Assembly (NCBI GenBank): GCA_020437545.1
Contig: JAGQWH010000004.1
Span: 1 to 38,289, forward strand
DNA length: 38,289 nucleotides
Origin: Ignavibacteriota bacterium
GTDB lineage: Bacteria; Bacteroidota; Ignavibacteria; Tepidaquicellales; Tepidaquicellaceae
Reading direction: 5' to 3'
Below are positions 2,214 to 38,289 of the stretch, piece by piece; within the stretch, counting starts at the first letter, position 1, and every line of letters begins with the position of its first letter. The translations under genes were made by a program, and so were the position numbers. The notes beneath the pieces are model-generated. The model ran no database searches. It was not told where the DNA came from and was given only the letters and a program-made list of their open reading frames with translations.

Positions 2214-3695
2214 ATGCTGAAAAGCTCACTGCTTGAGATCCTCCGCACATTCTCCAAACAGGAACTGCTAAAGTTTGAGGACTTTATCATATCACCTTAT
2301 TTTAATAAAAAAGAAAACGTAACGATGCTGTTTCTTGAGATAAAGAAATATTTACCTGAATTGTCGAATGAGAATCTTGAGAAAGAGAAGGTCTGGAATG
2401 CAATATTTCCAGGAAAGGAATATAATTACGGGATAATGAAGAATATTATCTTTGATCTGAATAAACTTTGCGAATCCTTTCTCTCAGAGGAAATTTATAA
2501 GAAAAATGATATTCAGAGAGATCTGGATTTTATGACATCTGCTTCAGAAAGAAATCTCAGTAATCTATTGATGAGTAAATTTGATTCTGCAGAACGTGCT
2601 TTCAGTAAAAATTCTGAAAAGTTTAAAGATGATTTTGCAAGCAATTATTATGAGAATCTAAGGGATTATTATGAATTAAAGACTGTATTCCTTCAGTCAA
2701 ACAGTCAGTTTAAAAAGCGGGATGAGCTTATTAAAATGCCTGAATATCTGATCTGCGGATTTCTTATTAAATGCTTTTCCACTTTTCATAAACTCATTCT
2801 GAATAATCTCGATTTTAACATACCAGTGAAAGATAATATTGCATATCTGATCCTGAAAGAAATGGATGAAAATTCAATTATAGAAAATTTTATGAATTAT
2901 ATTAAAGAGCATTCATTTAAGAATTATCCTGTATTGAAATGTTATTACAGCATGTATAAAGCTTTGTCGCGGAATGACAGCATTGAATATTTCCATGAGT
3001 TTAAAAATGATCTATCGAAATACGGCAATTTATTTTCCGAAAACGAAATACGGGATCTGTATAATTGCTTACTAACGAGTCTGGGAAACCGGAAATTTAC
3101 CACATTGGATTTTCATGCTGAATATTTCAGTATCATTGAGATTGGATTTAAAAACAAAGTTATTCTGAACCATGAAGGTACAATCCATCCGGCTAATTTT
3201 ATATCAATAGTAAATGTATCTTCCTCAAACAATAAAATTGAATTTACTGAAAAATTTATTTCAGATTACAAAGATAAACTGCCTCAGGAATTACGTGAAA
3301 GCCTTTTTAATTATTCCATGGCTCAGTTGAATTTTTATAAAGGGAATTTTGATAAATCACTTGAATTCATTATTAAATTTCAGACAAAGGATATGATGCT
3401 GAAATTTTTTATAAAGAATCTTCAGCTGAGTATTTACTATGAGCTTAATGACCGTGTATCTTTTGATTATTCAATAGATACTTTCAGGCATTTTATAAAG
3501 AAGAATAATTTAACAAACGAATCAAGATCAATTGTTCAGGCAAAGTACAGCGATTATGTTAACAGGCTTTTTAAACTCAGAGAAAAATCAAATGCTTTTG
3601 AGCTTTCAAAATTAAAAAAAGAGATCACTGACAATAAAGCCACCAATAAGATCTGGCTTCTTGAAAAAATTAAGGAACTAGAAAAAGTAAAGTAA
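2214..3695 (+). CDS. Helical-repeat protein of unknown function, 493-aa paralog family, copy 2
   Basis: 493 residues, the same length as copy 1, no signal peptide. From about codon 4 to codon 42 its DNA matches copy 1 with only about four mismatches in 113 bases, including a run of 50-odd identical bases. Beyond that point identity falls sharply. The C-terminus (W-L-L-E-K-I-K-E-L-E-K) is again the same amphipathic type. The conserved family N-terminus contains I-S-P-Y-F-N-K-K-E-N-V and a G-K-E-Y-N-Y-G-I-M-K-N segment near residue 70, shared with copies 1 and 3. The gene probably shares a transcript with copy 1 and ends at a strong hairpin terminator 12 bases downstream. Function unknown. The sharp boundary between conserved and diverged DNA suggests gene conversion at the 5' end or strong selection on the N-terminal segment. 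Confidence 0.8.
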   Translation: MLKSSLLEILRTFSKQELLKFEDFIISPYFNKKENVTMLFLEIKKYLPELSNENLEKEKVWNAIFPGKEYNYGIMKNIIFDLNKLCESFLSEEIYKKNDIQRDLDFMTSASERNLSNLLMSKFDSAERAFSKNSEKFKDDFASNYYENLRDYYELKTVFLQSNSQFKKRDELIKMPEYLICGFLIKCFSTFHKLILNNLDFNIPVKDNIAYLILKEMDENSIIENFMNYIKEHSFKNYPVLKCYYSMYKALSRNDSIEYFHEFKNDLSKYGNLFSENEIRDLYNCLLTSLGNRKFTTLDFHAEYFSIIEIGFKNKVILNHEGTIHPANFISIVNVSSSNNKIEFTEKFISDYKDKLPQELRESLFNYSMAQLNFYKGNFDKSLEFIIKFQTKDMMLKFFIKNLQLSIYYELNDRVSFDYSIDTFRHFIKKNNLTNESRSIVQAKYSDYVNRLFKLREKSNAFELSKLKKEITDNKATNKIWLLEKIKELEKVK

Positions 3696-6191: not shown

Positions 6192-7676
6192 ATGTTAAAA
6201 ACATCATTAATTGAAATATTAAAGACATTTTCATCTGAGGAACTTAAAAAGTTTGATGATTTTGTTAACTCTCCTTATTTTAATAAAAAGACTCCCGTCA
6301 TAAATCTATGGAAAGAAATAAAAAAACTTTCACCGGAATTTAATTCTGAAAGTCTGGACAGAAAACTTATTTATAGTAAATTGTTCCCTTCAAAAGAATT
6401 CAATTACGGGGTGATGAAAAATTTAATTTTCGACCTGACAAGGCTTGCTGAAAACTTTACCGTGATCGAATCCTTTCTTGAAGATGAATTGTCAAAAAAA
6501 TTAAACCTGATATATGGACTGGAGGATCGAAATCTTGTGGATTTATATGTTTCTAAATTTGAGACCATAGAAAAGACCGCACTGGATATGAGTTTTAAGA
6601 ACAATATTGTAAGGGAAGATTTCTATTTATGGATGTGGAAGCTCTTTATGGATAAATGGAATTTTGATAATCAATTCATTCATACAAAAAGTTATGAGAA
6701 AAACATTCATAACAGCTCGGATTATTTTCTGGCATTTATACTTATAAAATCGTTTATAATGTATCATAATATTGGAGGTCAAAAGTTCATTCATAATTCT
6801 TTAAATGAACCCAGCTCAATTGAAATATTCTTAAATGAAATTTCATCAAATAACGTTGTGGAGAAACTCATTTCGTCAATCAAGCCTGAGCTGAATGAAG
6901 TTTCGACAGTATTGGATGTATATCATAAAATGTATTTATCAGTTTCAGAAAACAGTACTTTAGAAAGTTATTTGGATTTTAAACATTCTTTGATGAAAAA
7001 CACAGTACTATTTTCAAAAAACGATTTGAATGCGTTATTTATTACATTATCAAATTGTCTTGGCCGTAATAATTTTAAAGAAATAAATCATAGTGAAGAG
7101 ACTCTTGAAATTTATGAATTCAGGATTGAAAATGATCTTTTAGTTACACATGAAGGAAAGCTTTGGGATCAGGAAGTTATAAGATATATTTCAATGGCCG
7201 GTAACATGGAAAGAATTGATCTTCTCGAAAAATTCATGGATAAAATGCAAAATCGAATTAGAGAAGAGACAAAAGAAAATCTTATTAAATTTGCCAGCGC
7301 TAACATTCTTTTAATTAAAAAAGAATATAATAAAGCCCTTGAAGTTACTTCATCAATAAAGTTTGATCTTTTTACAATGAAGTTTTATATCAAGAATCTC
7401 CAGCTAAAGATCTATTACGAACTTAATGAATATGATCCGTTTTCACTTTCACTGGATTCGTATAAACACTTTCTGAGTAGAAATAAAAATGTAAGTGATA
7501 AAATGAAATCCTACAATAAATCTTTTTGCGATTTTATAGAACAGCTTTTCGAACAAAAAAATAACTATGATGAAAACATATTCGAAGAAGTGAAAATCAA
7601 AATTTATGAGCATTACGGAAAAAACAACACATGGATAATGAGAAAAGTAAGGGAAATTGAACTAAAGTTCGGATAA
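6192..7676 (+). CDS. Helical-repeat protein of unknown function, 493-aa paralog family, copy 3
   Basis: 494 residues, the most diverged of the three plus-strand copies, but with the same landmarks: M-L-K-T-S-L-I-E-I-L-K-T-F-S at the start, N-S-P-Y-F-N-K-K near residue 27, K-E-F-N-Y-G-V-M-K-N near residue 70, a late K-F-Y-I-K-N-L-Q-L-K-I-Y-Y-E-L-N-E motif shared with copy 2, and a W-I-M-R-K-V-R-E-I-E-L tail. Copies 2 and 3 are closer to each other in the C-terminal half than to copy 1, while copies 1 and 2 share their N-terminal DNA. That mosaic pattern argues for recombination among copies. The gene is predicted cytoplasmic, with no signal peptide or membrane helix. It reads divergently from the dockerin-tailed gene across the palindromic element. 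Function unknown. Confidence 0.8.
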   Translation: MLKTSLIEILKTFSSEELKKFDDFVNSPYFNKKTPVINLWKEIKKLSPEFNSESLDRKLIYSKLFPSKEFNYGVMKNLIFDLTRLAENFTVIESFLEDELSKKLNLIYGLEDRNLVDLYVSKFETIEKTALDMSFKNNIVREDFYLWMWKLFMDKWNFDNQFIHTKSYEKNIHNSSDYFLAFILIKSFIMYHNIGGQKFIHNSLNEPSSIEIFLNEISSNNVVEKLISSIKPELNEVSTVLDVYHKMYLSVSENSTLESYLDFKHSLMKNTVLFSKNDLNALFITLSNCLGRNNFKEINHSEETLEIYEFRIENDLLVTHEGKLWDQEVIRYISMAGNMERIDLLEKFMDKMQNRIREETKENLIKFASANILLIKKEYNKALEVTSSIKFDLFTMKFYIKNLQLKIYYELNEYDPFSLSLDSYKHFLSRNKNVSDKMKSYNKSFCDFIEQLFEQKNNYDENIFEEVKIKIYEHYGKNNTWIMRKVREIELKFG

Positions 7677-7800
7677 ATATTTTTTATATATACTTTCCGG
7701 ATATTTAAAAACCAATAAAATCTTTATTGAAATTCCAGATAATAAATAGTATGTTAAGCCCGTTAACAAATAATATATCATTTCAACAAAAAAACAATTT

Positions 7801-8013
7801 ATGACCGAAGTAAAAACCAGTTCACACACTATTTTTCCACCGGCCGGATCATGGAATAATGCAGGCGAAAAGTCTCATTCAATATTCCCACCGGCAGGAT
7901 CATGGAACGATGCCAGCGAAAAATCACATTCGATTTTCCCGCCTGCAGGTTCATGGGATAAAGCATGTGAAAAGTCACACTCAATATTCCCACCGGCAGG
8001 ATCGTGGAAGTAA
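7801..8013 (+). CDS. Putative multi-core RiPP precursor: four 17-residue repeats
   Basis: A 70-residue protein with a 7-residue start (MTEVKTS) followed by four tandem copies of a 17-residue unit, consensus SHSIFPPAGSWNDASEK; the last copy stops after W-K. S-H, I-F-P-P-A-G-S-W and E-K are constant. The residues after Trp vary (N-N, N-D, D-K, K), and the third unit has a Cys. The four DNA copies differ at many synonymous positions (for example Ile att/ata and Pro-Pro ccaccg/ccgcct) while the peptide is preserved, which indicates selection on the protein. The gene has its own terminator 22 bases downstream and is followed by two radical SAM enzymes. That layout resembles multi-core precursors of ribosomally made, modified peptides. 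The near-absence of a leader is unusual. Repeated Trp, His, Phe and Pro would be possible modification sites; a cut at each K-S junction would release identical-sized peptides. The function is inference; the repeat structure is directly seen. Confidence 0.75.
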   Translation: MTEVKTSSHTIFPPAGSWNNAGEKSHSIFPPAGSWNDASEKSHSIFPPAGSWDKACEKSHSIFPPAGSWK

Positions 8014-8035
8014 GAGTTTAACTTATTTTTTAACG

Positions 8036-8072
8036 AAGTCCCGTGAAAGTAATTCTTTGCGGGACTTTTTTT
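8036..8072 (+). terminator. Intrinsic terminator/attenuator after the repeat-peptide gene
   Basis: AAGTCCCG (8036-8043) pairs with CGGGACTT (8060-8067); with two G-U pairs the stem extends to about 12 bp around a loop of about 9 bases. Seven T follow at 8066-8072. It lies between the repeat-peptide gene and the first radical SAM gene. Partial read-through would give much more precursor than enzyme mRNA, as is common in RiPP operons. Confidence 0.85.
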
Positions 8073-8157
8073 AATTAGATAAAAAGTTTGTAAAGTTTTT
8101 AATGTTTGTAAAGCAAATTTAAATTTTAGCTTTAAAAAAAATGTTACATACTTTATG

Positions 8158-8184
8158 AACTTTACTAACTTTACCAACTTTATA
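8158..8184 (+). repeat. Three 9-bp direct repeats just before a start codon
   Basis: AACTTTACT, AACTTTACC and AACTTTATA run in tandem and end 8 bases before the ATG at 8193, where a ribosome-binding site would lie. No Shine-Dalgarno is present. Confidence 0.7.
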
Positions 8185-8192
8185 TACAAAAA

Positions 8193-9419
8193 ATGAACGA
8201 CAGAAAAGAATTAATAAAATTAAAATGCGACCTGCTGCTTAATGGTCTGAGATTAAATGAATTAAGAAGTGATCTCGTGGAAACACAGGGATGGGAAAAA
8301 GACAGAGCTGCATGTTTCCTGCCGGCTGAATTAAAGATGCCTGAAGATGTATTCGTTCAGGTAAGGGAAAATCCTGAAGCTAATTTTAGGTTAAGGATCT
8401 CAGGTTCAGATGTAGTCATAGAAGATAGATCAAATAACGAGATATGCCGCGGTGAGTTTGTTTCACTTCCACCATTCTCAAAAAATTATACTAACGATCT
8501 TACTCCTTTCGAGAAGATAGTTGTTTATAACGGAATCTGTAATCTGAATTTCACATGGAATTATTACTGTGATTATTTCAGAACAAAGACAGAATGCAGA
8601 TTCTGTAATCTAACTCCGGCTCAGGATTTTTATCCGGATGAAAATATTTCAAATGCAAGAAAAACAGCTTCTCAGGTTGCAGACGTGATCGAAGCTGCAA
8701 AAAAATATCATACTGATCCTAAGTCAATTCTTACAAGAGGTACACCGGCTGATAAACAGGGACTCGGCGGAACGGTTCAGATACTTGAAGAGCTCTCGGC
8801 TAGATTTCCATACACAAATGACAGAGAGAGAACCAAACTTCTGATGACAGTATCTCCGACCAAAAAAATAGAAGAAGTGAAGTTACTTCATGATCTTGGA
8901 CTTCATTCGGTTTCATTTAACTTTGAAGTCTTTGATAAAGGATACTGGAAAGCTATTGTGCCTGGTAAAGATAAGAATATCGGAAGAGAGCTTTGGGAAG
9001 AATCTCTTGTTGATGCAGTAAAGCATTTCGGACCTGGCAGAGTTTTCTCGGCAATGATAGCAGGGCTTGAGCCGAGACAAACTCTTATTGAAGGTGTCCA
9101 CTGGTGCTGCGACAGAGGTATCATCCCTATTATAGTGCCGTTTAGTCCGGAGACAGGTAGTCAGTTTGAAGGTTTCAGACCGCCTACATTTAACTGGATG
9201 ATGGACACAACCACTCAGGCTGCAGAAATAATCGGAGAAAAACTCCCGTTCATAAATACTGAAGAATACTGGGATCTTGATGCTCCGATCTGCGCTGAAT
9301 GTTTTACCGGTGGATTTCTTTTTGATGTGATCAAAGAGAATGCAGGACTCAGGGATTACCATTCAGGCAATGAATTAAGTATAAATGTAATTCCGGCACA
9401 GGCAGTTAAAGTTGATTAA
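8193..9419 (+). CDS. Radical SAM enzyme with C-x9-C-x8-C-x2-C motif (paralog A), putative peptide modifier
   Basis: 408 residues, cytoplasmic. The first ~110 residues form a separate N-terminal region, possibly for substrate binding. Then come C116, C126, C135 and C138; C126/C135/C138 form a C-x8-C-x2-C motif ending in C-R-F-C-N, which reads as a [4Fe-4S]/SAM site with wider spacing than the usual C-x3-C-x2-C. Downstream features fit a radical SAM TIM barrel of the BioB/MoaA kind: G-T-P-A-D-K-Q-G-L-G-G, F-N-F-E-V-F, V-P-G-K-D, A-G-L-E-P and I-V-P-F-S-P. A late C367-x2-C370 pair, also present in paralog B, could bind a second cluster. No SPASM or cobalamin-binding domain is evident. The gene lies 180 bases after the repeat-peptide gene and 25 bases before a META-domain gene. 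The reaction is unknown; modification of the upstream peptide is inferred from position only. Confidence 0.8.
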   Translation: MNDRKELIKLKCDLLLNGLRLNELRSDLVETQGWEKDRAACFLPAELKMPEDVFVQVRENPEANFRLRISGSDVVIEDRSNNEICRGEFVSLPPFSKNYTNDLTPFEKIVVYNGICNLNFTWNYYCDYFRTKTECRFCNLTPAQDFYPDENISNARKTASQVADVIEAAKKYHTDPKSILTRGTPADKQGLGGTVQILEELSARFPYTNDRERTKLLMTVSPTKKIEEVKLLHDLGLHSVSFNFEVFDKGYWKAIVPGKDKNIGRELWEESLVDAVKHFGPGRVFSAMIAGLEPRQTLIEGVHWCCDRGIIPIIVPFSPETGSQFEGFRPPTFNWMMDTTTQAAEIIGEKLPFINTEEYWDLDAPICAECFTGGFLFDVIKENAGLRDYHSGNELSINVIPAQAVKVD

Positions 9420-9444
9420 ATTTTTAATTAAATCAAATAATATT

Positions 9445-10605
9445 ATGTTTAAAAATATAGTTTTTTTTATATTTGTTATTTTTTTTATGACAAAGAATAT
9501 TTCAGCTCAGGATCTTAATCCTGACAATACGCAGAGAGACAGTTCAGATTTTCTGATGAAGATGTTCAATGACGGTGTTGATTTTTATGCAAACGGAAAC
9601 GAACCGTTCTGGTCTATGGATCTTGCTTTTGATAAGTATTTGCGTTTTAATGTGCTGGATGGTGATTCAATCAATCTTGGTTCCGTAAAAGGCGAAAAAG
9701 CAATGGATGCAAATATTATGAGGTATGCTCAGAAAACAGATAATGGATTTTTCACAATGACCATTTATCAGCAGGAATGTTATGATGATATGTCAGGAGA
9801 AAAATTTGATTATAAAGTCATAGTCGAACTGAATAATCCCGGAGACGCGAATTATAAAAAGTATGAAGGCTGCGGAAACTATGTACCGGATTATAAACTG
9901 AACAGAACATGGATACTTAAAAAGCTGGGAGATAAAGATGCAGTGGATACTGATTATTCAAAAGGACTTCCCGATTTAACATTTGATGTTAAACAAAAGA
10001 GATTCAGCGGTAACGGTGGTTGTAACAGGATCATGGGATCTGTTTTTATTGAAGGCGGAACTTTAAGATTCGGAGAAGTAGCTTCGACAATGATGATGTG
10101 TCCGGATATTGAAATGGAAACTGAATTCACTAAAGCTCTTGCAAAAGTTACAAGTTATAAACTGACAGGAAATCAGCTTATACTTGAAAATCCTGATGAA
10201 TTGATTATGGTATTGTATGATCCGACTCTGGGATTCTCGGATAAAACCAAGGAAGAATTTGCAGACAGTTACAAGCTTAACGATACATGGGTGCTTGAAA
10301 AGATCAATGGCTCTTTTGCTCAGGAAAAGGATTACATGAAAGGTTTACCTACGATCGAGATCAGTATTGAGGATATGTCTGTAAAAGGAAACGGCGGATG
10401 CAATCAGATATCATGTACTTTTATTGCTGATAAGGAAAATATTAAATTCGGTCCAATAGCAGCTACAAGAATGGCTTGCCCGGGAAATTTTGAATCGGAT
10501 TTTCTTTCTGTACTTGAAAATGCTAATAAATATAAAATTGAAAATAACCGACTTTATCTAATGAATGATGAGATCACTCTGGCAGTTTTAAAGAAAACTG
10601 ATTAA
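9445..10605 (+). CDS. Secreted protein with two META (HslJ-like) domains
   Basis: 386 residues from the ATG at 9445. A TTG at 9412, overlapping the preceding gene, would add 11 residues before the signal peptide and is less likely. The signal peptide is MFKNIVFFIFVIFFMTKNIS, cut after A-Q near residue 22. Residues ~45-130 contain G-N-E-P-F-W-S, typical of a domain often found beside META domains. Two META/HslJ domains follow (about 140-250 and 265-386), each with L-N-x-T-W-x-L, G-N-G-G-C-N and an M-x-C-P or M-A-C-P signature. HslJ-type proteins sit in the envelope and are linked to stress or drug tolerance, but their biochemical role is unclear. The gene sits between the two radical SAM paralogs on the same strand with short gaps, so it is probably co-transcribed. 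It could be an envelope partner or immunity/binding protein for a peptide product; that is speculative. Confidence 0.8.
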   Translation: MFKNIVFFIFVIFFMTKNISAQDLNPDNTQRDSSDFLMKMFNDGVDFYANGNEPFWSMDLAFDKYLRFNVLDGDSINLGSVKGEKAMDANIMRYAQKTDNGFFTMTIYQQECYDDMSGEKFDYKVIVELNNPGDANYKKYEGCGNYVPDYKLNRTWILKKLGDKDAVDTDYSKGLPDLTFDVKQKRFSGNGGCNRIMGSVFIEGGTLRFGEVASTMMMCPDIEMETEFTKALAKVTSYKLTGNQLILENPDELIMVLYDPTLGFSDKTKEEFADSYKLNDTWVLEKINGSFAQEKDYMKGLPTIEISIEDMSVKGNGGCNQISCTFIADKENIKFGPIAATRMACPGNFESDFLSVLENANKYKIENNRLYLMNDEITLAVLKKTD

Positions 10606-10607
10606 AA

Positions 10608-10635
10608 CACAATACTCAATACTCAATACACAATA
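10608..10635 (+). repeat. Four 7-bp direct repeats before a start codon
   Basis: CACAATA, CTCAATA, CTCAATA and CACAATA run in tandem between the META gene and the ATG at 10643, ending 7 bases before it. They fill almost the whole spacer and occupy the ribosome-binding position. Copy-number slippage here would change spacing only. Confidence 0.75.
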
Positions 10636-10642
10636 CAAAAAA

Positions 10643-11872
10643 ATGACACTCGACGAATCCATAAGACTAAAAACCGAACTCTTAATAGACGGACTTACCA
10701 TCACAGATGAGGCTTTGACAACTGTCGGTCAGGGCGGACTTGAGAAAGTATTCTGGGTTTTTGAAATGACGCCATCGACTCACAAGGGAACAGGCGACGG
10801 CACCAGACCTTTGCCTAATGATATGCTTCTTCCGCATGATCTGTATGTGGATGTCAGATACAGTCCGGCTTCTCCTTTCAAAGTTCATAAGAGCGGAGAT
10901 ACCGTTGTACTTATGAAAAACAATAAAGAATTGTGTGAAGTTAAATGGCCGAAGAGACCTGATTTTTATGATAAGAAAACACGAAGCGGGGAGTCTATGA
11001 AGAAAGTCGCATCAATGAGAGGCGACTGCGGTCTGAGAGTTTGCTTTGATAATGCATGCACATATTTTGCAAAAGGGGAACAGTGTAAGTTTTGTAATAT
11101 AGTTCCGGCGAGACAGCGTAACCGTGATCATATTGTGACAATAAAAGAAGCAGAAGATATTTATGATGTTGTAAAAGAAGCGATAATTGATAATCCTGTC
11201 TGCTCTCATCTTGCAATGACAGCCGGCGCTGCAAAGGATGACGGACTGGGTAATCTGCCGAAGATACTTGAAAGATTAAAACCTTTACTTGAGGAGAAAT
11301 ATTTTCCAATTGTTACAGCAATAACTGCAACACGCAACAGGGAAGAGACGGAATATTTATGCTCGAGCGGTATTAGTTCGGTCGCATTCAATCTCGAGAT
11401 CTGGGATGAACAGATATTCTCTCAGATATGTCCCGGCAAAACAAGAAGAGTTGGAAGAGAGCGATGGATCGAATCATTAAAAGAAGCAAGAGATCTTCTG
11501 AAACCTGCGAGAGCTTTGAGTTCGTTTGTAGTAGGACTCGAACCAATGGAATCAGTACTGACGGGAATAGATTATTTGTCATCTGAAGGTATCTTCCCGA
11601 TCATGAGTCCGTTCATACCGATGGTAGGAACAGAATACGAAGGAAACCCCGCTCCAAAGTCACAATGGGTCTGGGATGTACACGAAAGAGCAACAGAGCT
11701 GATTCATAAAAACCTGCCTGAAGCATTCTGCGATGAAATATGGGACGGAGACATTGGCATCTGTCCGTCCTGCACTACAACTAAATTATTCTTTGATTTT
11801 ATGAGAAGAATAGTACCCAGAGATAATCCGAGAAGGTTAATGTCTAATGAGAGTGTGGAAGCGTATGTGTGA
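10643..11872 (+). CDS. Radical SAM enzyme with C-x9-C-x8-C-x2-C motif (paralog B), putative peptide modifier
   Basis: 409 residues, clearly paralogous to the enzyme at 8193 along its whole length. C129, C139, C148 and C151 repeat the C-x9-C-x8-C-x2-C spacing exactly (C-K-F-C-N-I at the end). Shared blocks are F-N-L-E-I-W, C-P-G-K-T-R-R-V-G-R-E, G-L-E-P-M, G-I-F-P-I-M-S-P-F-I-P and the late C374-x2-C377. It has an extra ~13 residues in the N-terminal region and an extra C134 in the motif. The N-terminal L-K-T-E-L-L-I-D-G-L pattern matches L-K-C-D-L-L-L-N-G-L in paralog A, so both may bind a related substrate. It is the last intact gene of the presumed unit 7801-11872. Two related but diverged enzymes in one operon could act one after the other or form a pair. 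No catalytic assignment is possible from sequence. Confidence 0.8.
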   Translation: MTLDESIRLKTELLIDGLTITDEALTTVGQGGLEKVFWVFEMTPSTHKGTGDGTRPLPNDMLLPHDLYVDVRYSPASPFKVHKSGDTVVLMKNNKELCEVKWPKRPDFYDKKTRSGESMKKVASMRGDCGLRVCFDNACTYFAKGEQCKFCNIVPARQRNRDHIVTIKEAEDIYDVVKEAIIDNPVCSHLAMTAGAAKDDGLGNLPKILERLKPLLEEKYFPIVTAITATRNREETEYLCSSGISSVAFNLEIWDEQIFSQICPGKTRRVGRERWIESLKEARDLLKPARALSSFVVGLEPMESVLTGIDYLSSEGIFPIMSPFIPMVGTEYEGNPAPKSQWVWDVHERATELIHKNLPEAFCDEIWDGDIGICPSCTTTKLFFDFMRRIVPRDNPRRLMSNESVEAYV

Positions 11873-11971: not shown

Positions 11972-12091
11972 ATGAAAGTAAAGGAAGTAATAAAATTAAT
12001 TGAGAAAGACGGATGGTATCTTAAAGAAACCAAAGTTAGTCACAGACAATTACCAACCTCGATCAGTGATTCAGTTGAAGTGGCGGCTTAA
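11972..12091 (+). pseudogene. hicA-hicB deletion scar (HicA N-terminus fused to HicB C-terminus)
   Basis: A 39-codon frame in the 300-base gap between the radical SAM and DinB genes. Residues 1-26 read as the start of a HicA mRNA interferase (MKVKEVIKLIEKDGWYL, then S-H-R-Q with the catalytic-type His at 24), but the usual Gly before Ser-His is Val. Residues 27-39 (LPTSISDSVEVAA, then stop) match the typical end of HicB antitoxins. The simplest reading is that a hicA-hicB pair lost everything between these points in one internal deletion that kept the frame. The product should lack both toxin fold and DNA-binding antitoxin, so it is probably non-functional. The rest of 11873-12172 is AT-rich with nothing else recognisable. 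Confidence 0.65.
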
Positions 12092-19489: not shown

Positions 19490-19604
19490 GAGTGTGTGGA
19501 GTGTGTGGAGTGTGTGGAGTGTGTGGAGTGTGTGGAGTGTATAGAGTGTATAGAGTGTATAGAGTGTATAGAGTGTATAGAGTGTATAGAGTATAGAGTG
19601 TATG
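19490..19604 (+). repeat. 9-bp tandem repeat array (two unit types)
   Basis: Five perfect copies of GAGTGTGTG (19490-19534) pass directly into six perfect copies of GAGTGTATA (19535-19588), then a 7-base partial GAGTATA and one GAGTGTATG. The change of unit type part-way suggests two rounds of slippage expansion. It lies in the 308-base gap between the genes ending at 19471 and starting at 19780. The remainder of that gap is AT-rich; the only other repeat-like element is a doubled AGATTGTTT near 19733-19750. Confidence 0.95.
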
Positions 19605-19779
19605 GAGCAATTTGCAATAACGAATTGCTGATGACTTAAGATAATTTTTAATTTTTGTACCGTTCTGATAAAGTTTATACATCCCTTAGAGATGAGATGA
19701 TATCTTTTTTGTAGTTAGTTTCAATTTAAAACAGATTGTTTAGATTGTTTAGTTTGTTGAAATAGAAAATTTTTTAGCT

Positions 19780-38100: not shown

Positions 38101-38148
38101 GTTAATTGGTTAATTAGTTAATTGGTTAATTGGTTAATTGGTAAATTG
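38101..38148 (+). repeat. 8-bp tandem repeat, six copies
   Basis: GTTAATTG, GTTAATTA, GTTAATTG three times, then GTAAATTG. It lies 61 bases upstream of the phosphoesterase start at 38039, in what would be its promoter region. Confidence 0.9.
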
Positions 38149-38206
38149 GTTATTTTGTTTTCCACCGATGTGGAGTGTTCAGTTTTCAGAACAATAGTTA
38201 AAAATT

Positions 38207-38289
38207 ACCTAATACCTAATACCTAATACCTAATACCTAATACCTAATACCTAATACCTAATACCTAATACCTAATACCTAATACCTAA
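38207..38289 (+). repeat. 7-bp tandem repeat array running off the window end
   Basis: About 11.9 perfect copies of ACCTAAT from 38207 to the last base, with no sequence variation among copies. The array continues beyond the window, so its full length is unknown. The 38149-38206 spacer before it shows nothing recognisable. Confidence 0.95.

Follow-up and report, generated by a model that had tools for sequence, protein, structure and literature searches.

The structure of the locus described here points to a three-gene module of Ignavibacteria, in which a repeat peptide is probably a RiPP precursor with several cores and almost no leader, and two paralogous radical SAM enzymes probably modify it. 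The analysed stretch of DNA, hereinafter the window, is 38,289 nt long (Ignavibacteriota bacterium GCA_020437545.1, contig JAGQWH010000004.1, positions 1-38,289, forward strand). The locus contains the following features:

7727-7755, + strand: promoter-like motif of the Bacteroidota type (TTGA-N19-TAnnTT), 5' of the peptide gene
7801-8013, + strand: candidate precursor peptide, 70 aa, four SH[S/T]IFPPAGSW cores (ORF with homologues in 12 genomes)
8035-8078, + strand: intrinsic terminator, a hairpin with a T tail at the peptide/enzyme boundary (equivalent hairpin in 11/11 loci)
8193-9419, + strand: radical SAM 1, 408 aa, NF045502, with C126/C135/C138 (C-x8-C-x2-C) and C116, C367 and C370 (profile match and alignment)
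9445-10605, + strand: META-domain protein, a passenger gene probably outside the module (in 3/11 loci)
10643-11872, + strand: radical SAM 2, 409 aa, paralogue of radical SAM 1, ~30% identical (NF045502 match)

The window's genome encodes a single copy of the repeat peptide and no NF045502 members other than radical SAM 1 and radical SAM 2.

The product of ORF 7801-8013, MTEVKTSSHTIFPPAGSWNNAGEKSHSIFPPAGSWNDASEKSHSIFPPAGSWDKACEKSHSIFPPAGSWK, consists of four 17-residue units with a 51-bp period, as described in the original prediction. Among the 12 genomes encoding it, the protein contains 4-6 core units, and its size grows by whole repeats. These genomes provide 52 complete SH[S/T]IFPPAGSW units, which are partly copies within one genome and hence not independent. 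Ser1, His2, Ile4, Phe5, Pro6, Pro7, Gly9, and Trp11 are invariant in the 52 units, and Ala8 is nearly so. The same units have a pS of 0.63 and a pN of 0.046 (dN/dS ~0.035). Because synonymous codons are free to vary while the protein is constant, the repeat is a true protein-coding gene under purifying selection rather than a chance or non-coding repeat.

The first unit differs from the others. Specifically, core position 3 is Thr in unit 1 (12/12) and Ser in all later units (40/40), and three of the four exceptions at Ser10 are in unit 1, which makes unit 1 a candidate for a role in recognition. The spacers between cores are loose, except for a near-constant Glu-Lys ahead of each later core, and the peptide ends one residue past the last Trp. 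It starts just 7-8 residues ahead of core 1, consistent with the near-absence of a leader noted at the outset, and signal peptide-like sequence is absent there.

The core was originally assigned to no known class, and indeed no Pfam, NCBIfam, PHROG, or PADLOC model matches the repeat peptide meaningfully. The PADLOC defence-system search gave no match, no relatives of the peptide were found on plasmids, no relatives were found in viral contigs, and a phage search returned one partial match (20%). Weak peptide matches occur elsewhere in the phylum; those in G098, the only genome examined closely, turned out to be in-frame readings of CRISPR arrays (L120 and L121) and were rejected. The in-frame translation of this CRISPR repeat is VAPPAGAWIET, which mimics PPAG.W and is a trap for motif searches.

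A scan of 84,980 species genomes with radical SAM 1 identified seven relatives, each from Ignavibacteria or a 'Bacteroidetes' MAG, and all seven have an IFPPAGSW repeat protein immediately 5'. In the window's order (Ignavibacteria), the repeat peptide is present in 12 of 44 genomes, and NF045502 enzymes are present in exactly these 12 genomes and in no others. The chance of two identical 12/44 sets is 1 in 2.1e10, with phylogeny ignored. The carriers represent 8 of 19 genera and two families. Two carriers call for caution: enzyme 2 alone is seen, in part and at a contig end, in the incomplete genome G345 (67%), and the two enzymes of G346 are on separate contigs. Run over the whole class (391 genomes), the enzyme profile recovers only the 12 carriers and distant homologues in four genomes of family f12.

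The original prediction, which linked peptide and enzymes by position only, suggested searching genomes for IFPPAGSW proteins beside radical SAM pairs; this search confirms the adjacency and adds strict co-inheritance. Neither of the patterns named there as contrary was found: all 12 carriers of the repeat protein have the radical SAM genes, and this radical SAM pair was never seen elsewhere without the repeat peptide. The co-inheritance shows that peptide and enzymes are functionally linked, but does not by itself identify the peptide as the substrate. Genera g167 and g3 each contain carriers and non-carriers, indicating that the module genes probably were gained or lost jointly more than once. 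In G358, a congener of G366, the genes that precede the G366 locus are present in unchanged order but are not followed by the module; different genes lie downstream, and then the contig ends. Between congeners, the module is present or absent as a unit.

In all loci with usable contigs (11 loci), the peptide gene comes first, followed by enzyme 1 and then enzyme 2, all on one strand; the flanking genes differ among distant genera. TTGA-N18/19-TAnnTT is located 54-74 bases upstream of the peptide in 12/12 genomes (shuffles, mean 1.2, maximum 4), a count that is descriptive because the pattern was written after the sequences had been viewed. The terminator reported after the repeat peptide consists of a hairpin and a T run, located at 8035-8068, and this layout is kept across loci: a terminator separates peptide and enzyme 1 in 11/11 loci by eye and in 9 by a strict script (shuffles 0.02). 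The stems differ in sequence between genera, indicating that structure is kept rather than sequence. Because the terminator separates the peptide from the enzymes, the peptide is probably produced in excess of them. A gene-encoded precursor clustered with modifying-type enzymes, as expected of a RiPP locus, is found both in the fixed order of the 11 loci and in the co-occurrence among the 44 genomes.

Between enzymes 1 and 2 there is nothing in 6 loci, a META gene in 3, a gene for an FMN-binding protein (FMN_bind_2) in 1, and six unrelated genes in 1; no accessory gene is conserved between the enzymes in the 11 loci. The META protein of the window is located where originally described (9445-10605, likely start 9445) and has two META domains (E 2.6e-45). 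Its proposed membership of the system does not hold: found in just 3/11 loci and replaced elsewhere by nothing or by other genes, META is a passenger and is rejected as a component. Across the 11 loci, no protease, transporter/exporter, or immunity gene is conserved with the module, in agreement with the earlier remark that a transporter and a protease are absent.

Several other features of the window and of related loci were observed. A 39-codon ORF just 3' of radical SAM 2 (11972-12091) resembles the HicA toxin over its first 27 residues (E 1.7e-5, under the gathering cut-off) and departs from it after that; it looks like a hicA remnant. Three paralogous ORFs of ~494 aa (653-2134, 2214-3695, and 6192-7676), one of which was tested and has no Pfam match, are arranged around a 725-aa ORF. 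The 9-bp repeat GAGTGTATA occurs 13 times at 19490-19607, and, following a GTTAATTG repeat at 38101, the contig closes with 12 perfect TACCTAA copies (38206-38289). In two congeneric carriers, a lysine-alanine repeat protein (KKAVKKA, histone-tail-like) is encoded 5' of the peptide (L129:6909-7127 and L136:1498-1749).

The enzyme pairing was originally recognised from no named class. Both enzymes are in fact members of NCBIfam NF045502 ('variant radical SAM'; cut-off 125), with 286.9 bits (E 1.9e-85) for radical SAM 1 and 322.4 bits (E 3.3e-96) for radical SAM 2, and are near the MSMEG_0568/Nit1C group. Like other NF045502 members, they have C-x8-C-x2-C, which is invariant across 77 members of the family. 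Unlike the MSMEG_0568/Nit1C enzymes, they are paired, carry C116/C367/C370, and are encoded beside a repeat peptide; their scores against the MSMEG_0568 (Nit1C) model TIGR04043 (83.2 and 105.2 bits) are far under its cut-off of 303.7, and the loci of the peptide module have no nitrilase gene and thus also differ from the Nit1C context. The C-x9-C-x8-C-x2-C spacing that was first noted is present in both window enzymes, but its first cysteine is outside the core motif, because only C-x8-C-x2-C is invariant in the wider family.

C116, C367, and C370 (enzyme 1 numbering) are invariant in 22/22 Ignavibacteria sequences, comprising both paralogues. Nearly all members from family f25 (probably Chlorobiaceae) are without these cysteines, a few having one aligned cysteine at 367, and in two Nit1C enzymes C-terminal CxxCxxC cysteines lie close to the C367/C370 site but C116 is missing. 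The extra invariant cysteines suggest that each module enzyme probably contains a second iron-sulfur cluster. Enzymes 1 and 2 group as a clade (support 0.956), and their between-genome distances correlate (Spearman 0.58).

AlphaFold2 models of radical SAM 1 and radical SAM 2 (mean pLDDT 78.7 and 74.8, respectively) have the radical SAM fold, with the cluster loop poorly modelled (pLDDT <50 over residues 122-155 in enzyme 1). The nearest fold of both models, though a weak match, is lipoyl synthase (LipA/LIAS), with Z of 16.5 and 17.7 and rmsd of 3.4-4.0 (~240 residues aligned, 12-14% identity). HydE, NifB, and BioB are only ~2 Z units below, so the resemblance implies no function for the enzymes. 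Lipoyl synthase, too, belongs to the radical SAM enzymes and carries a second cluster; it has C-x3-C-x2-C and an N-terminal C-x4-C-x5-C auxiliary motif. Neither spacing is present in enzymes 1 and 2, which place their cysteines differently and have an extra N-terminal domain. A sequence search of solved structures with radical SAM 2 gave no meaningful relative.

SPASM/twitch RiPP maturases have a C-x3-C-x2-C cluster motif. The systems that they serve (sactipeptides, ranthipeptides, streptide, and triceptides) resemble the module in having a radical SAM enzyme beside a short peptide, and the extra cysteines of the module enzymes likewise suggest a second cluster. However, the module enzymes have C-x8-C-x2-C, belong to another family, and give no SPASM match in Pfam or NCBIfam, as originally stated, while the peptide has neither a leader of normal length nor a conserved core cysteine.

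The precursors of mycofactocin and PQQ are single-core, and these systems use a PqqD-type RRE and SPASM enzymes. In contrast, the module has tandem cores and no recognised RRE, and its two paralogous enzymes belong to another family. RiPP precursors in general have a leader or a follower, which an RRE often binds. No PqqD-family protein is encoded in the window's genome, and a PqqD-type RRE, present in 2/12 carriers versus 14/32 non-carriers, is not associated with the module. The N-terminal domains of the enzymes are modelled with helices ahead of strands (in enzyme 1, three helices and then strands), whereas the order in an RRE is strand-strand-strand, helix-helix-helix (PMC12710340). Otherwise the module is similar to mycofactocin (MftA/MftC) and PQQ (PqqA/PqqE), in which a conserved small polypeptide is clustered and co-inherited with a radical SAM enzyme and no exporter is expected (PMC3023750). 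Haft distinguished bacteriocin systems, which have exporters and fast-changing peptides, from cofactor systems, in which a radical SAM enzyme is inherited together with a small peptide of striking conservation (PMC3023750). With its conserved, co-inherited peptide and no exporter, the locus fits the cofactor pattern apart from the tandem cores.

Other members of the enzyme family are found in different surroundings. Most of the radical SAM relatives found on plasmids are Nit1C enzymes (~24-28% identity), Nit1C relatives lie in nitrilase clusters, and two Nit1C proteins have C-x9-C-x2-C instead of C-x8-C-x2-C. Arrays of up to six or more NF045502 paralogues are present in f25 (L105/L106/L107/L108/L116, from genomes G141/G252/G221/G205/G193), adjoining nitrogenase-like NifD/K and NifH homologues, a short-chain dehydrogenase, MFS or ABC transporters, and small PNPOx-like proteins. 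A search of these arrays for repeat peptides found none.

Because these relatives occur in small-molecule settings, the peptide might instead act unmodified. It could be a multivalent scaffold, a carrier, or a chaperone that binds metal, and would present a cluster or a small-molecule substrate to the radical SAM pair, which would itself make a small metabolite. The invariant His and Trp of each repeat are candidate metal ligands, and NifB, HydE, and lipoyl synthase are among the nearest folds, as would suit such a role. We nevertheless consider it unlikely: genes for transport or for making a substrate are not conserved with the module, the separate terminator suggests that peptide outnumbers enzyme, and a mostly loose chain that repeats an 11-residue motif 4-6 times resembles a substrate.

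The multi-core layout, the terminator after the precursor, and the patchy occurrence in the order would also be compatible with an exported RiPP antimicrobial or signal, matured by the pair and secreted by a general transporter encoded elsewhere. This is quite improbable: the core is almost invariant over 8 genera, whereas antimicrobial cores usually diversify, and the module has no exporter or immunity gene, no signal peptide, and no PADLOC match. It is more improbable still that the repeat ORF is a regulatory leader peptide, with stalling at its His, Pro, or Trp codons controlling terminator read-through into the radical SAM genes (attenuation), because, although a terminator lies directly 3' of this His-, Pro-, and Trp-rich ORF in all loci, the entire 11-residue motif is conserved as protein, beyond the stalling codons, the ORF lengthens in whole repeats, and pairing between the terminator's 5' arm and the coding region, which would form an antiterminator, is not in excess.

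Modification of the peptide by the enzyme pair is thus probably the right reading and the most economical one, as it accounts for the strict co-inheritance, the fixed order, the excess-expression layout, and the conserved, repeated, substrate-like motif. Against it stand the lack of a recognised RRE, of PqqD, and of a conserved protease or transporter, and the small-molecule genes beside other family members. The RiPP locus with two radical SAM maturases that was originally proposed is accordingly kept in outline, both contrary patterns being absent and the terminator layout conserved, but with META placed outside and the enzymes assigned to a named family.

In the proposed RiPP pathway, a precursor carrying 4-6 SH[S/T]IFPPAGSW cores (70 residues and four cores in the window) would be made, probably in excess of the enzymes. 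The two radical SAM paralogues, each probably with a second iron-sulfur cluster, would modify residues in each core, the likely targets being the invariant His, Phe, Pro-Pro, or Trp. Repeat 1, which has SHT where later repeats have SHS, may replace a leader in recognition. Cleavage, perhaps after the conserved Glu-Lys, would free near-identical units. A core that does not vary and the lack of an exporter point to a conserved product kept inside the cell, for example a redox or metal cofactor, which fits better than a bacteriocin.

In the literature searched, the PPAGSW motif is not mentioned, Ignavibacteria are not tied to radical SAM RiPPs, and nothing relevant was found for the MSMEG_0568 radical SAM; the locus is a candidate radical SAM RiPP class. 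We suggest tentatively, as a possible though rather speculative extension, that it represents a new Ignavibacteria class in which an almost leaderless tandem-core precursor uses repeat 1 as its leader and a duplicated C-x8-C-x2-C pair with a new auxiliary-cluster arrangement makes many copies of an invariant peptide-derived cofactor. If the proposed modification is correct, radical SAM peptides would gain a class whose enzymes come from a family otherwise found here next to small-molecule genes, and the module would provide a multi-core precursor with essentially no leader. The function of NF045502/MSMEG_0568-type enzymes would become testable with a defined candidate substrate, and the invariant core, present 4-6 times per peptide, would lend itself well as a substrate to elucidating the reaction.
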